The position numbers and the translations under genes were made by a program. Below the pieces are notes generated by a model, which did no database searches, was not told where the DNA came from, and saw only the letters and a program-made list of their open reading frames with translations. Shown here one piece after another: positions 29,134 through 34,457 of a stretch of 36,104 bases of DNA (within the stretch, counting starts at the first letter, position 1; each line of letters begins with the position of its first letter). This DNA is from Flavobacteriales bacterium (lineage in GTDB: Bacteria; Bacteroidota; Bacteroidia; Flavobacteriales_F; PHOS-HE28), in contig JAGNUG010000029.1 in NCBI GenBank assembly GCA_017987115.1, positions 1-36,104 on the forward strand, read 5' to 3'.

Positions 29134-30483
29134 TCAACCTCTATAGTGCCTCGGCTTCTTCGTCACCAACGCAGCGGCAGGTTCCGGTACCCAATGGTGT
29201 CGCCCTCCTGCTAGTTCATCATCGAAGGTTTTTGGGATGTTGCCTGCGCGGGTGCGATCACCCCAAGTAACGTGTTCCTTGCCATCATCACGGCGTTCCA
29301 TAGTGATGCAATCTTCTACAGGGCACACGATGGAGCAGAGGTTGCAGCCCACACAGTTCTCTTCAATGATGTTCGGGACGCGGATCAATGGGTCGCTCGA
29401 TAGTCCGATGGCTTGGTGCGCACCGTCCTCGCAAGCGGTGTAGCACAATTGGCAACCGATGCATTTATCAGCATTGATCTCGGCTACGACTTTGTACTTT
29501 AGGTTCAGGTCTTCCCAATGCAGGATATTCGGAAGGGCTTTGCCTCGGAAATCTTCAATGGTCTTGAAGCCTTTTTCATCCATGTAGCGCTCCAGTCCGG
29601 ACTTAAGGTCACGGATAATACCGAAACCATAGTGCATCACTGCAGTACAAACCTGCACTGATGTTGCACCAAGCAAGATGAACTCAGCAGCATCGCGCCA
29701 GGTTTCTACGCCACCTATTCCACTGATCGGAATGCCCACTTGCGTATCCTGTGCGCAATTCTTGAGCATGTTCAACGCGATGGGTTTCACGGCAGGACCG
29801 CAGTAACCACCGTTGGTGCTTTTGCCATCGACATTCGGATCTGATACGAACGTATCAAGGTCTACACCGATGACACTTTGGATGGTGTTGATCAACGAGA
29901 TCGCATCGCTACCTCCTACTCTGGCTGCACGCGCAGGTCGGGTGATATCCGAAATATTGGGTGTGAGCTTGGTGATCACCGGGACCTTGGCAACTTCCTT
30001 CACCCACTCAACAATGGTCTGTAACACTTTGGGTTCTTGCCCAACGGCGCTGCCCATACCGCGTTCGCACATACCATGCGGACAACCGAAATTGAGCTCT
30101 ATACCATCGGCGCCTGCGTTCTCCACATCGCGCACTATGTTGTGCCATTCCTCGCGGGTTTCCACCATCAACGAAGCAATGATCGCGTGATCCGGAAAAC
30201 GCTTTTTCACTTCGGAGATCTCGCGGAGGTTGTCTGCAAGTGGTCGGTCGGTAATAAGCTCGATGTTATTGAATCCGACCATGCGGTTATCCCGGTAATT
30301 CAACGCACCGTAGCGGCTACTCACATTCACAACAGGTACACCGAGGGTTTTCCAAACAGCCCCACCCCAGCCCGCATCGAAGGCCTTCATGATCTGGTAC
30401 CCGGAATTCGTTGGTGGCGCGGAGGCAAGCCAAAATGGGTTTGGGCTTTTGATGCCTGCGAGGTTTGTTCTTAGATCTGCCAT
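29134..30483 (-). CDS. preA: NAD-dependent dihydropyrimidine dehydrogenase subunit PreA
   Basis: This 449-residue protein has an FMN-binding dihydroorotate-dehydrogenase-like barrel: NPFWLASAPPTNS near residue 16, ELNFGCPHGMCERGMGS near 128-144, TKLTPNISDI, GGYCGPAVKPIALNML, and GIGGVETWRDAAEFILLGA. A C-terminal ferredoxin domain carries two 4Fe-4S clusters (CIGCQLCYTAC near 341-351 and CVGCNLCSIVCPVEDC near 380). With PreT it reduces uracil and thymine to dihydro forms using NADH. Its ATG overlaps the 3' end of the four-helix-bundle reading frame by 13 bases. In related operons preT and preA are normally adjacent; here a cassette separates them. Confidence 0.95.
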   Translation of the reverse strand: MADLRTNLAGIKSPNPFWLASAPPTNSGYQIMKAFDAGWGGAVWKTLGVPVVNVSSRYGALNYRDNRMVGFNNIELITDRPLADNLREISEVKKRFPDHAIIASLMVETREEWHNIVRDVENAGADGIELNFGCPHGMCERGMGSAVGQEPKVLQTIVEWVKEVAKVPVITKLTPNISDITRPARAARVGGSDAISLINTIQSVIGVDLDTFVSDPNVDGKSTNGGYCGPAVKPIALNMLKNCAQDTQVGIPISGIGGVETWRDAAEFILLGATSVQVCTAVMHYGFGIIRDLKSGLERYMDEKGFKTIEDFRGKALPNILHWEDLNLKYKVVAEINADKCIGCQLCYTACEDGAHQAIGLSSDPLIRVPNIIEENCVGCNLCSIVCPVEDCITMERRDDGKEHVTWGDRTRAGNIPKTFDDELAGGRHHWVPEPAAALVTKKPRHYRG

Positions 30484-31076
30484 TGTTCGATTAGCTGATT
30501 AGCTGATGTGTTGATTAGCTGATGACGCCTGTTGCGATCCGGTGCCTCCGACTTCTTATTGGGCTTATTGGCTTCGTTGGCCTTTCGGTCCAACAATCGC
30601 TTCTTGGATGTGCCAATGATCTTATTGAGTATCCGCATTACACGTTGTATGCGACCGATGATGTCGGAGTCGGCCGAATTATCGTTGGTCGCAATGATCA
30701 CATAGTACCAGTATTCGGCTTCGTCAGCTTCCGTAAGTGCGATCTTCAACTTGTGGACGAAGTCTTTCAGGCTTTCCGTGTTCTGAGCTTCCTTCGAACT
30801 TGCTAGGGGCGAAGATGAAGATCGTTCGAACTGGTCGATCAACCAACGCCGTTGAAGGCCTAGCCTATCCATGTATTTGACCGCAGCTACGGTTAGCCCA
30901 AACGTCTCACGCAAAAGCAAATTGTCCCTGTAAACAGGACTTCCGGTGTATTCATGCTGAGGCTCCGAGACCATCGAACCGCTCATCATTTCCATCCTGT
31001 CCTCAATGACAACATCGCAGCAAATTGCTGCCCAATCCTCGGCATTTCCAGCTATTTCCAGATCATCATCTTCCAT
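30471..31076 (-). CDS. Four-helix-bundle protein (23S rRNA intervening-sequence/Avd-like family)
   Basis: The first ATG is at 31076 (MEDDDLEIAGNAEDWAAICC), giving about 201 aa; a TTG at 31133 could extend it, and ATGs further in are possible because family members usually lack this acidic N-terminus. The core, about residues 50-160, matches the second class of these proteins: NLLLRETFGLTVAAVKYMD, then QFERSSSS, SLKDFVHKLKIALTEADEAE with YWYYVI, and RVMRILNKIIGTSKKRL. The usual RSGTSI segment is degenerate (RSSSSP). The last 40 residues are low complexity (KANEANKPNKK, then HQLINTSANQLIEQ) and are translated from an intergenic repeat. Homologs are encoded within 23S rRNA intervening sequences and in diversity-generating retroelements; no reverse transcriptase is nearby. 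Biochemical role unknown. Confidence 0.72.
   Translation of the reverse strand: MEDDDLEIAGNAEDWAAICCDVVIEDRMEMMSGSMVSEPQHEYTGSPVYRDNLLLRETFGLTVAAVKYMDRLGLQRRWLIDQFERSSSSPLASSKEAQNTESLKDFVHKLKIALTEADEAEYWYYVIIATNDNSADSDIIGRIQRVMRILNKIIGTSKKRLLDRKANEANKPNKKSEAPDRNRRHQLINTSANQLIEQWQI
30489..30523. repeat. AGCTGAT-type repeat, left arm flanking the four-helix-bundle gene
   Basis: Three AGCTGAT units with short spacers occupy the junction between the four-helix-bundle coding core and the preA ATG. The 23-base core at 30501-30523 is complementary to 31151-31173 with a single mismatch, so the two copies are inverted repeats separated by 627 bases. This arm is also translated as the tail of the four-helix-bundle protein. 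Confidence 0.85.
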
Positions 31077-31142
31077 GGTAGTCCCTATTTCGCTTTGTGT
31101 CCTGCTGAAGTTCCTCGATTTTCCGAGAACCAAGCTTCGCCT

Positions 31143-31180
31143 ATCAGCTAATCAGCTGATCAACACATCAGCTGATCATC
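31143..31180. repeat. AGCTGAT-type repeat, right arm flanking the four-helix-bundle gene
   Basis: On the minus strand this run begins inside the preT stop codon (TGATCAGCTGATG) and holds three AGCTGAT units. The core at 31151-31173 pairs with 30501-30523 at 22 of 23 positions; pairing continues outward for about eight more positions with two mismatches. In a preT-preA transcript the arms could form a stem enclosing the four-helix-bundle gene. Confidence 0.85.
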
Positions 31181-32519
31181 TCTTCAAATACGCATCGATC
31201 CCATGCGCCGCCTTTTTCGCTTCTGCGGCAGCATTCACCACTTCCACACCACCGTTCACCGCATCGCCTGCTGCAAAATACTTTGGGTTATTGGTCTGGA
31301 AATGATCGTTCACAACGAGTCGTCCACGATCATCGAGGATGCGGCTCTTATGCTCCAATTTCACTCCGCTGATCTGTTCCAAAAGCTCAACCTGTTTCCC
31401 CTGGCCTGTTCCGAGTAGCACCATGTCACAAGACTCAACGAACTCACTTCCCGCTAAGGCTTCGATCTTACCGTACGCTGCTTTATTGCGGATGAATTTC
31501 ACGCCGGTCACAGAACCATTGCCCATGATCTCAACAGGTGTAACGTTGAACAATGCCTTCGCACCACTCTTCTTAGCAAGGTCGAATTCGAACGAGTAAG
31601 CGCCCATTTCATCCGACCCACGACGGTATGCGATGGTCACGCTTTCTGCTCCCATGCGGCAACTTTCGCTAGCAGCATCCATTGCAGTATTTCCTCCGCC
31701 TAGCACGATCACCTTGTTCCCGATCGGTGTTTTGTGGTGCTTCTGGCGGAGTTCCTCCACGTACTCCAACGCTCCTATAACTCCTTTTTTATCTTCGCCG
31801 GGCACGCCTAAAGTTGAAGTTGCTCCGAGACCAATGCCAATAAAGATCGCGTCATACTCTTTCTCCAATTTTTCAAGATCCACGCGGCCTGCAACTGGTT
31901 TGTTGTAAGTGATAGTGAATCCGAATTGCTCTTGCAGATAGATGATCTCGTCAACCGCCTGTTCGTTGGTCAACTTATACGGAGCAACGCCATGAACACA
32001 GAGGCCGCTGGGTTGTGCTTTCGCTTCGTGGATATCCACGGCATGTCCGAGCATCCTTAACTCGCAAGCAGCGGAAATTCCAGCAGGACCTGCACCGATC
32101 ACTGCAACTTTCCTACCGGTGTCTTTTCCTGTTCTGAATAGTTTCTTCTTGGTACGGATCACCTCAGCGGTAGCATGCGATTGCAAACGTCCGATCTCGA
32201 TCGGTTTAACATCGCTATGATTGTAGACACAAGCACCTTCGCACAGCTCCTCCGTCGGGCACACATTGCCGCAAGCATGTCCCATCCAATTGCTGTCGTA
32301 GATCGTCTTTGCAGCACCTTCATTGGTTCCATTATTGATCTGCCGAATGAACTGCGGTATATCGATCCCGGTGGGACACGCATTCACACAAGGTGCATCG
32401 TAGCAATACAAACACCGAGAGCTCTCGTAATACGCTTCGGTATCGGTCATCAACGGTTTCTTCGGATGGAAATTCTCTTTGAACTCCACATCACTTGTCG
32501 GTCTCTTGTACTCTGCCAT
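31176..32519 (-). CDS. preT: NAD(P)-dependent dihydropyrimidine dehydrogenase subunit PreT
   Basis: This 447-residue flavoprotein belongs to the glutamate-synthase small-subunit family. Two N-terminal Cys-rich motifs bind 4Fe-4S clusters (CLYCYDAPCVNACP at about 36-49 and HACGNVCPTEELCEGACV at about 81-98). The FAD site VIGAGPAGISAACEL is near 139, the NADPH/NADH-type site VIVLGGGNTAMDAA near 268, and the late FAD motif FAAGDAVNGG near 420. It takes electrons from NADH and passes them to PreA for uracil/thymine reduction. The start MAEYKRPTSDVEF is unambiguous. Upstream is the beta-ureidopropionase gene; downstream the stop is immediately followed by a repeat. Confidence 0.95.
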   Translation of the reverse strand: MAEYKRPTSDVEFKENFHPKKPLMTDTEAYYESSRCLYCYDAPCVNACPTGIDIPQFIRQINNGTNEGAAKTIYDSNWMGHACGNVCPTEELCEGACVYNHSDVKPIEIGRLQSHATAEVIRTKKKLFRTGKDTGRKVAVIGAGPAGISAACELRMLGHAVDIHEAKAQPSGLCVHGVAPYKLTNEQAVDEIIYLQEQFGFTITYNKPVAGRVDLEKLEKEYDAIFIGIGLGATSTLGVPGEDKKGVIGALEYVEELRQKHHKTPIGNKVIVLGGGNTAMDAASESCRMGAESVTIAYRRGSDEMGAYSFEFDLAKKSGAKALFNVTPVEIMGNGSVTGVKFIRNKAAYGKIEALAGSEFVESCDMVLLGTGQGKQVELLEQISGVKLEHKSRILDDRGRLVVNDHFQTNNPKYFAAGDAVNGGVEVVNAAAEAKKAAHGIDAYLKR

Positions 32520-33623: not shown

Positions 33624-34457
33624 CTATACACCCAAAGTGAAATTGATCGGAAGAACCAGCTTGGTCCTAACTAGATCTTCGCCACTCTTTCCGGGCTTCC
33701 ACGCAGGCATTATTCCGATGACCCCCAGAACCTCGCTGTCGAAGTTCTTGGAACCCTTAACGCTCCGCACTATCCGCGGGTCGAAAATGGCGCCATCTAT
33801 CCCGACAACAAACTCGACGAACAGCCGCCCGCCGATGCCATTGTCATGTTCCCACTTCGGGTATGCCAGATTCCTTCTAAGGAACGCAAACAAGCTGTCC
33901 TGACCTCCAGGAAATTCTGGCATGACCTCTGGCAAACGCTCGACGTGATCCGACCCATATGAAGCGTTGTCATCGAGAATGATGTCACCCACTATGGGTA
34001 GTGGGACCGGGACCTCTTCAGATCTGAGATTCCTGTGTTGGCCCGACGAATCCATACCACTTTCAGATGCCAATTCACCTGCCAACGAATCAGCCCGAGC
34101 TATAGTGTCGCCGGTTGGAATGTTGTCTTTTTCAATATCAGGGGGAGCCCCACATCCGGCAATGGTCCATCCTCCAATTGCCAAGAGATAATAGGCAAGG
34201 TTGGAGGCGCGGTTCGCCTGAAGACTGCGCCAGATGCAGACCTCAACGAATTCGTGGAATATATCTACCTGATCACGGCGAACGCGCCCGCAGACCGGAT
34301 TCCCTTTGTGTTCCGTCAAGTAGTAGATCAATTCCGTCTTCGTCTTCTCAGTGAAATCCACGACTTCCTTATCACACTGGAAACAATGTCGTCCGAACAT
34401 GCCAACCCGCATGTTCTCCCAGTGTTCTGAACAAGAGAAAGTGATTCTCGGCTCCAT
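33624..34457 (-). CDS. TonB C-terminal domain protein with N-terminal Cys-rich module
   Basis: This 277-residue protein opens with a cytoplasmic module (FSCSEHWENMRVGMFGRHCF, then CDKEVVDFTEKTKTEL; about 8-43) that carries three Cys in a C...C..C arrangement seen in other Bacteroidota proteins and may bind metal. One membrane helix lies near residues 84-101 (NLAYYLLAIGGWTIAGCG), then a disordered acidic stretch. The C-terminal TonB-type domain is at about 175-277: PEFPGGQDSLFAFLRRNLAY, GRLFVEFVVGIDGAI, and MPAWKPGKSGEDLVRTKLVL. TonB proteins couple the proton-motive force to outer-membrane receptors; no ExbB/ExbD or receptor is nearby. It has no obvious place in pyrimidine breakdown and is flanked by inverted repeats. 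Confidence 0.85.
   Translation of the reverse strand: MEPRITFSCSEHWENMRVGMFGRHCFQCDKEVVDFTEKTKTELIYYLTEHKGNPVCGRVRRDQVDIFHEFVEVCIWRSLQANRASNLAYYLLAIGGWTIAGCGAPPDIEKDNIPTGDTIARADSLAGELASESGMDSSGQHRNLRSEEVPVPLPIVGDIILDDNASYGSDHVERLPEVMPEFPGGQDSLFAFLRRNLAYPKWEHDNGIGGRLFVEFVVGIDGAIFDPRIVRSVKGSKNFDSEVLGVIGIMPAWKPGKSGEDLVRTKLVLPINFTLGV

Follow-up and report, generated by a model that had tools for sequence, protein, structure and literature searches.

The stretch of DNA analysed here (the window) comprises 36,104 nucleotides from a Flavobacteriales bacterium (assembly GCA_017987115.1, contig JAGNUG010000029.1). On its minus strand, preT, a small gene for a four-helix-bundle (4HB) protein and preA form an operon, in which the 4HB gene is enclosed by two inverted arrays of short repeat units (Table 1). 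The placing of this gene between preT and preA in the initial annotation is borne out, as its neighbours code for PreA and a PreT-type flavoprotein, and so is the family assignment made there: the gene matches PF05635 (E 6e-9) and TIGR02436 (E 4.6e-13), the latter with 49.3 bits against a family cut-off of 24.

Table 1. Positions of genes and arrays in the preT-preA region of the window
Feature	Position	Strand	Remarks
preT-like gene, NAD(P)-binding flavoprotein subunit (PreT-type, GltD-like)	31176..32519	-	upstream neighbour; stop codon in first repeat unit
Left array (5' side, operon sense)	31142..31181	-	8-nt units GATGATCAGC TGATGTGT TGATCAGC TGATTAGC TGAT
4HB gene (23S_rRNA_IVP / TIGR02436)	30471..31076	-	ATG at 31076, stop at 30471; profile matches
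Right array (3' side, operon sense)	30489..30526	-	ATCAGCTAATCAACACATCAGCTAATCAGCTAATC; inverted vs left array
preA	29134..30483	-	downstream neighbour; ATG 30481-30483, 5 nt beyond right array

The flanks had been described as inverted repeats, of which one begins in the preT stop codon and the other ends shortly before the preA ATG. The pairing of 30501-30523 with 31151-31173 is indeed exact at 22 of 23 positions and extends at most to 32/38 positions between 30486-30523 and 31151-31188; the preT stop TGA (31176-31178, minus strand) sits within one arm, and the other arm stops just short of the preA start. The inverted-repeat score of 23.5 was reached by none of 2000 dinucleotide shuffles (0/2000; maximum 15.5). 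Beyond this description, the arms, at 30489-30523 and 31143-31177, prove to be arrays of the 8-nt units GATTAGCT, GATGTGTT and GATCAGCT and not a plain 23-mer, the unit consensus of the window's 4HB subfamily being RATNNGNN. The predicted fold of the whole element as single-stranded RNA pairs both arms (z -3.2). The 4HB frame of the window runs through the right array into preA, its last ~16 codons being encoded by the array, whereas in the relatives G016 and G044 it terminates ahead of the array; the run into preA is a derived state. Elsewhere in the window, at 33626-34457, a gene for a TonB C-terminal domain is bracketed by another inverted repeat, GGGCGTGCCCCTCGC...CGCTTTCTGCTGCAAGTCC, also with a score of 23.5.

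The 4HB Protein

The 4HB protein is kept by purifying selection in Flavobacterium, as follows from the low dN/dS (median about 0.06 over 126 pairs of copies). Its AF2 model (pLDDT 86) matches 2RLD, 2GSC and Avd of diversity-generating retroelements, with TMt of 0.66-0.75 against Avd (4DWL, 8UB7) in Foldseek, and the protein has no known catalytic domain. The crystal relatives 2RLD and 2GSC contain five chains each; PMC3936711 cites the 2GSC paper under a title that names an assembly of five four-helix bundles. A pentamer that would read about five repeat units is an attractive idea.

Inverted Arrays Around 4HB Genes

To score bracketing, the 450 bp before and the 450 bp after a gene were compared for their best inverted match, with a threshold of 16. 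About 23 genomes of the genus yielded 70 4HB genes suitable for this test, of which 53 score at least 16, as compared with 4/141 neighbouring ORFs (Fisher p 7e-30) and 2/178 random intervals. Two of the four neighbouring ORFs that reached the threshold are such elements themselves, one being a 4HB gene and the other a similarly arranged GxxExxY gene. About a quarter of the 4HB loci of the genus score below 16, and of the four 4HB genes in the genome of the window, one (L004 on C152 of G000, a weak 4HB match with a 273-aa frame) has no flanking arrays.

Outside the genus, 80 named loci of the window's subfamily were collected from other Bacteroidota and 79 of them were scored with the same threshold; 54/79 pass, with 8-nt units, against 0/180 random intervals, although these are not 79 independent events because many of them share one junction, that between hmgA and hpd. 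On plasmids of Cyanobacteriota, Azospirillum and Gemmatirosa, 14 of 16 relatives score above the best of 50 shuffles, and their array units include TAGGGAG, AAGCTAA, GACAGGT, GGGCAGG and TCAGGAG. Inverted arrays were also found at 4 of the 5 tested loci from IMG/VR; no 4HB matches were found in the phage collection. The same layout with family-specific units recurs in well over a hundred relatives from several phyla. The association between repeats and gene family supposed in the initial annotation, including the presence of other repeat-flanked 4HB genes in relatives, proved to be very strong across phyla. Among open-licence papers, none was found that connects IVP genes with inverted arrays of short units, and this absence is weak evidence.

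The arms have a median length of 4 to 4.75 units. Among 46 periodic arms of the genus, the period is 7 in 35 and 8 in 8 (7 or 8 in 43/46), while in the window's subfamily it is 8 in 56/57; random 30-mers are almost never periodic. Unit families of the genus include AGTCNNN, GGCAGNN, GTTGTCN, NGATCAGA, AGCCNNN and CGTAGNN. The similarity of arms follows that of proteins with a Mantel r of 0.556 (maximum of 2000 null values, 0.114), and r is 0.287 (null maximum 0.109) once near-orthologues are removed. The unit sequence is specific to the 4HB protein subfamily.

Host Sites

The genus sample consists of 45 genomes, including that of the window (G000), and preA was found in about a dozen of them. 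The preT-preA junction is empty, with a spacing of a few nucleotides (e.g., TTGAAGAAATAGGCCATGGCAG), in G014, G012, G022, G041, G040 and G053 and is filled with gene and arrays in G000, G016 and G044, where the 4HB genes of G016 (59% identical) and G044 (48% identical) lie between GATTAGCT-type arrays. An array without a gene occupies it in G060 and an unrelated gene in G003. Such presence and absence among relatives is the outcome for which the initial annotation had proposed to look. Nearby, between a CN-hydrolase gene and preT, a further 4HB gene flanked by NNTACCC 7-mer arrays is present in G012, G022 and G003, and G014 has a 4HB gene with GACAACC arrays downstream of preA. Between the window's genome and G016, preA is 94% identical and the 4HB protein 62% identical (aligned ORF). 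Empty and filled junctions are too diverged for exact placement of the ends, so that no target-site duplication is definable.

The hmgA-hpd junction houses 44 loci of the window's subfamily. In 60 further genomes this junction is filled, empty, occupied by remnants or by other content, unrelated genes among it; it is empty in the window's genome (L245), only the outer ends of both arms remain in G012 (L248), and inverted arrays without a gene are found at L272 and L255. At L283, a different 4HB subfamily with its own NNTTAGA arrays occupies the same place. The elements are gained and lost at the same operon junctions, and one junction can hold different subfamilies. These loci are not independent, because many hmgA-hpd copies within Flavobacterium appear to be vertically inherited. 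Several Flavobacterium copies (L150, L153, L158, L177) have two hairpins, with a full inverted array pair both before and after the 4HB gene rather than one pair enclosing it. Two other genomes have a DUF4160/DUF2442-like gene pair at hmgA-hpd (L264, L267) with no obvious arrays.

Further copies, like that of the window, lie between protein genes. Co-direction with both neighbours was found for 59/64 named elements vs 173/272 controls and for 34/55 genus elements vs 95/242 controls, a bias that fits either an RNA-linked process or the survival of copies at sites where the gene is expressed by way of the host operon. Two copies on cyanobacterial plasmids (L285, L286) are antisense between two same-strand genes, namely those for the beta and alpha subunits of ribonucleotide reductase and secretion genes, and show that co-direction is not a strict rule. 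Cyanobacterial plasmids also carry 4HB genes inside CRISPR operons, between cas6 and cas4 or cas10 and cmr3 (L289, L290, L294), with inverted arrays at L289 and L290 and a weaker match at L294 (score 14.5). A survey of cas loci counted 18 IVP genes, which co-occur with Cas4/Cas6 (PMC3936711). Because the copies in CRISPR operons carry the same arrays, this reported association may reflect ordinary insertion only.

Gene-less Hairpins and Arrays

Copies without a gene were sought in the 45 genomes with the pattern GATTAGCTGATTAGC, allowing at most one mismatch, and with the reversed pattern as a control. There were 40 matches in 13/45 genomes, as compared with 1 for the reversed pattern, and the inspected loci beyond preT-preA proved to be hairpins or single arrays without a 4HB gene. 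Many of these dispersed hairpins share an inner GGAAATGCC/GGCATTTCC motif, which also follows the left array of the G016 element. Of the GATTAGCT matches, 18 belong to the three genomes that have a 4HB gene of the GATTAGCT type, and the remaining 42 genomes together account for 22, a skew that favours a cognate link, uncorrected for kinship of the genomes. In G041, G022 and G012, GATTAGCT hairpins are present and a GATTAGCT-type 4HB gene was not found.

Two such sites vary among all relatives. The icmF linker of this genome (L008/L301) contains an in-frame GATTAGCT hairpin (fold z -5.35), and in relatives some linkers are built of other 7-mer-derived repeats, e.g., ATSHEPRATSHEPRAAS. The leader of an acyl-CoA carboxylase gene (L423-L452) has GATTAGCT arrays, GATCAGA arrays or none, depending on the species. 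This variability prevents insertion points and target duplications from being placed exactly at either site. At L437, a CCTGCCTGCCGGCAGGCAGG palindrome lies within the array of this leader.

A Second Gene Family

Genes of the family PF13366 (GxxExxY, PDDEXK_3) in the same relatives (L074:6159-6576; L337-L366) are bracketed in a similar manner, with 19/30 scoring at least 16 (Fisher p 5e-14 against the controls of the 4HB genus test). Their array units are about 8-10 nt long, e.g., CACAGATTA, CGCAGAGA and CGCCAAGA. This suggests that the inverted-array architecture is not bound to one protein fold.

Interpretation

In our opinion, the window locus is probably a member of a class of small insertion elements that has not been described before; they would be prone to gain and loss, and a 4HB oligomer would recognise the repeat code of its own element. 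Such an element would comprise a single 4HB gene, of the S23/IVP/Avd fold, enclosed by arrays of a 7- or 8-nt unit that are inverted relative to each other. The oligomer may read about 4-5 units as single-stranded RNA or DNA or as a paired hairpin; the co-variation of proteins and units is what suggests this recognition. Reading of the units would favour insertion or retention of the element and, in trans, of gene-less hairpins, whereas cutting and joining would be carried out by host or borrowed enzymes. An element of this kind would be mobile. Since most surviving copies sit in the gap from the stop codon of one gene to the start codon of the next in the same transcription unit, the 4HB gene is presumably expressed from the host operon and the arms should be able to pair as an mRNA stem, at which the mRNA may be cleaved. 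The array code, the gene-less hairpins and the antisense copies speak for an element at the level of DNA no less than for RNA processing.

A broader generalisation is plausible, and we put it forward tentatively. According to it, 4HB (IVP) genes and, separately, GxxExxY/PDDEXK_3 nuclease genes might be the protein parts of tiny selfish elements distributed across phyla, having a 7-10-nt end code read by their own oligomeric protein. The short tandem repeats of cyanobacteria, xanthomonads, Beggiatoaceae and Bacteroidota would then be footprints of these elements, and intervening sequences (IVSs) of 23S rRNA would be a special case in rRNA.

Several other explanations should be considered. In the IVS of Coxiella, according to the passages of PMC4990558 on this element, RNase III cuts a 28-bp stem that encloses an S23 ORF, and by comparison the arms might pair in preT-preA mRNA, RNase III might cut the stem and the 4HB protein might act on the released RNA or on its processing. 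The predicted pairing of the arms, which is seen for the complete element (z -3.2) as well as for the icmF hairpin (z -5.4), and the co-direction above that of control genes (59/64 and 34/55) agree with such an RNA element. The same passages make no mention of repeat-coded arrays in IVSs, and the antisense cyanobacterial copies L285 and L286 weaken this and any other purely transcript-bound scheme. We regard it as unlikely. The IVS analogy of the initial annotation stands in respect of layout, with complementary arms predicted to pair around an IVP/S23p ORF, and fails in respect of rRNA, since the window copy lies between the protein genes preT and preA, not inside a 23S or 16S rRNA gene.

TRAP is a regulatory protein that binds spaced trinucleotide repeats, and a 4HB protein might in a similar way bind arrays in mRNA leaders or junctions and tune the downstream gene, the insertion-like pattern reflecting how a useful cassette turns over. 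Purifying selection on the protein, arrays adjoining start codons, gene-less arrays in leaders such as that of the acyl-CoA carboxylase gene and the long residence at hmgA-hpd could all be understood in this way. A host regulatory module is nevertheless rather improbable, as the host genes are functionally unrelated (preT-preA, hmgA-hpd, scoA-scoB, CRISPR operons, RNR), close relatives have nothing in the same junction and the array family at one site varies between species. A non-autonomous, MITE-like DNA transposon that carries the 4HB gene as a passenger and depends on an unrelated transposase for its movement would account for terminal inverted repeats, miniature gene-less copies and presence/absence; it is very improbable, given that passengers would not retain subfamily-specific ends across several phyla and that a cognate transposase or duplication was not identified. 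Repeats that arose by chance or simple slippage and flank a small gene by coincidence hardly deserve consideration: 7-nt short tandem repeats are common in bacteria (PMC4692102), but the neighbour-ORF and random-interval controls, the dinucleotide shuffles and the inverted self-matching arrangement contradict such an origin.

If the insertion-element reading preferred here is true, this is a new kind of minimal mobile element, odd small genes in operons, including CRISPR operons, would be explained without a function there, and a protein combined with its cognate array would provide a direct assay for Avd-fold proteins. To our knowledge, no function has been assigned to IVP/S23 proteins, which are very widely distributed and for which two structures are solved; tandem repeats of 7-8 nt, for their part, are widespread and unexplained. 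The present finding joins the two via a testable code, in which the protein subfamily predicts the repeat unit, and gives a lead on what orphan 4HB proteins do.

Comparison with Known Systems

The element would belong to a new class, partly RAYT/REPIN-like and partly IVS-like, because it differs from IVSs in location and from the other candidates in lacking the reverse transcriptase of diversity-generating retroelements, the transposase of insertion sequences and the Y1 transposase of RAYTs. In RAYT/REPIN systems, a gene has its own inverted short repeats, gene-less paired copies are dispersed in the genome and the repeat type tracks the protein type. The element shares own flanking inverted repeats, dispersed gene-less copies and repeats that track the protein. 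However, its gene codes for a four-helix bundle, not a Y1 HUH tyrosine transposase, its ends are multi-unit arrays and there is no homology. Like an insertion sequence, the element has terminal inverted repeats, but only a 4HB gene, and no transposase, is inside. A retroelement with a reverse transcriptase in cis was rejected, no RVT_1 being found in this genome (about 96% complete).

With 23S IVSs that contain an S23p/IVP ORF (Leptospira, Coxiella; PMC4990558), it has in common a 4HB-family ORF within pairing arms and sporadic presence/absence; it differs in its location in an mRNA operon, arms made of arrays of 8-nt units, many copies and gene-less hairpins. Avd of diversity-generating retroelements (4DWL, 8UB7) has the same fold as the 4HB protein, whereas the element has no reverse transcriptase, template repeat or variable repeat. 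23S_rRNA_IVP genes reported from cas loci (PMC3936711) represent the same family between cas6-cas4 and cmr2-cmr3; co-occurrence was noted there, and inverted arrays are added here (L289, L290; L294 weaker). Cyanobacterial STRR and heptanucleotide repeats (Calothrix, Nostoc) share intergenic tandem 7-nt units, often in convergent pairs, and other heptanucleotide repeats are GGGAATC in Xanthomonas (PMC4692102) and TAACTGA in Beggiatoaceae (PMC4679880). These two papers draw no tie to a protein, whereas the arrays on cyanobacterial plasmids studied here bracket 4HB genes.
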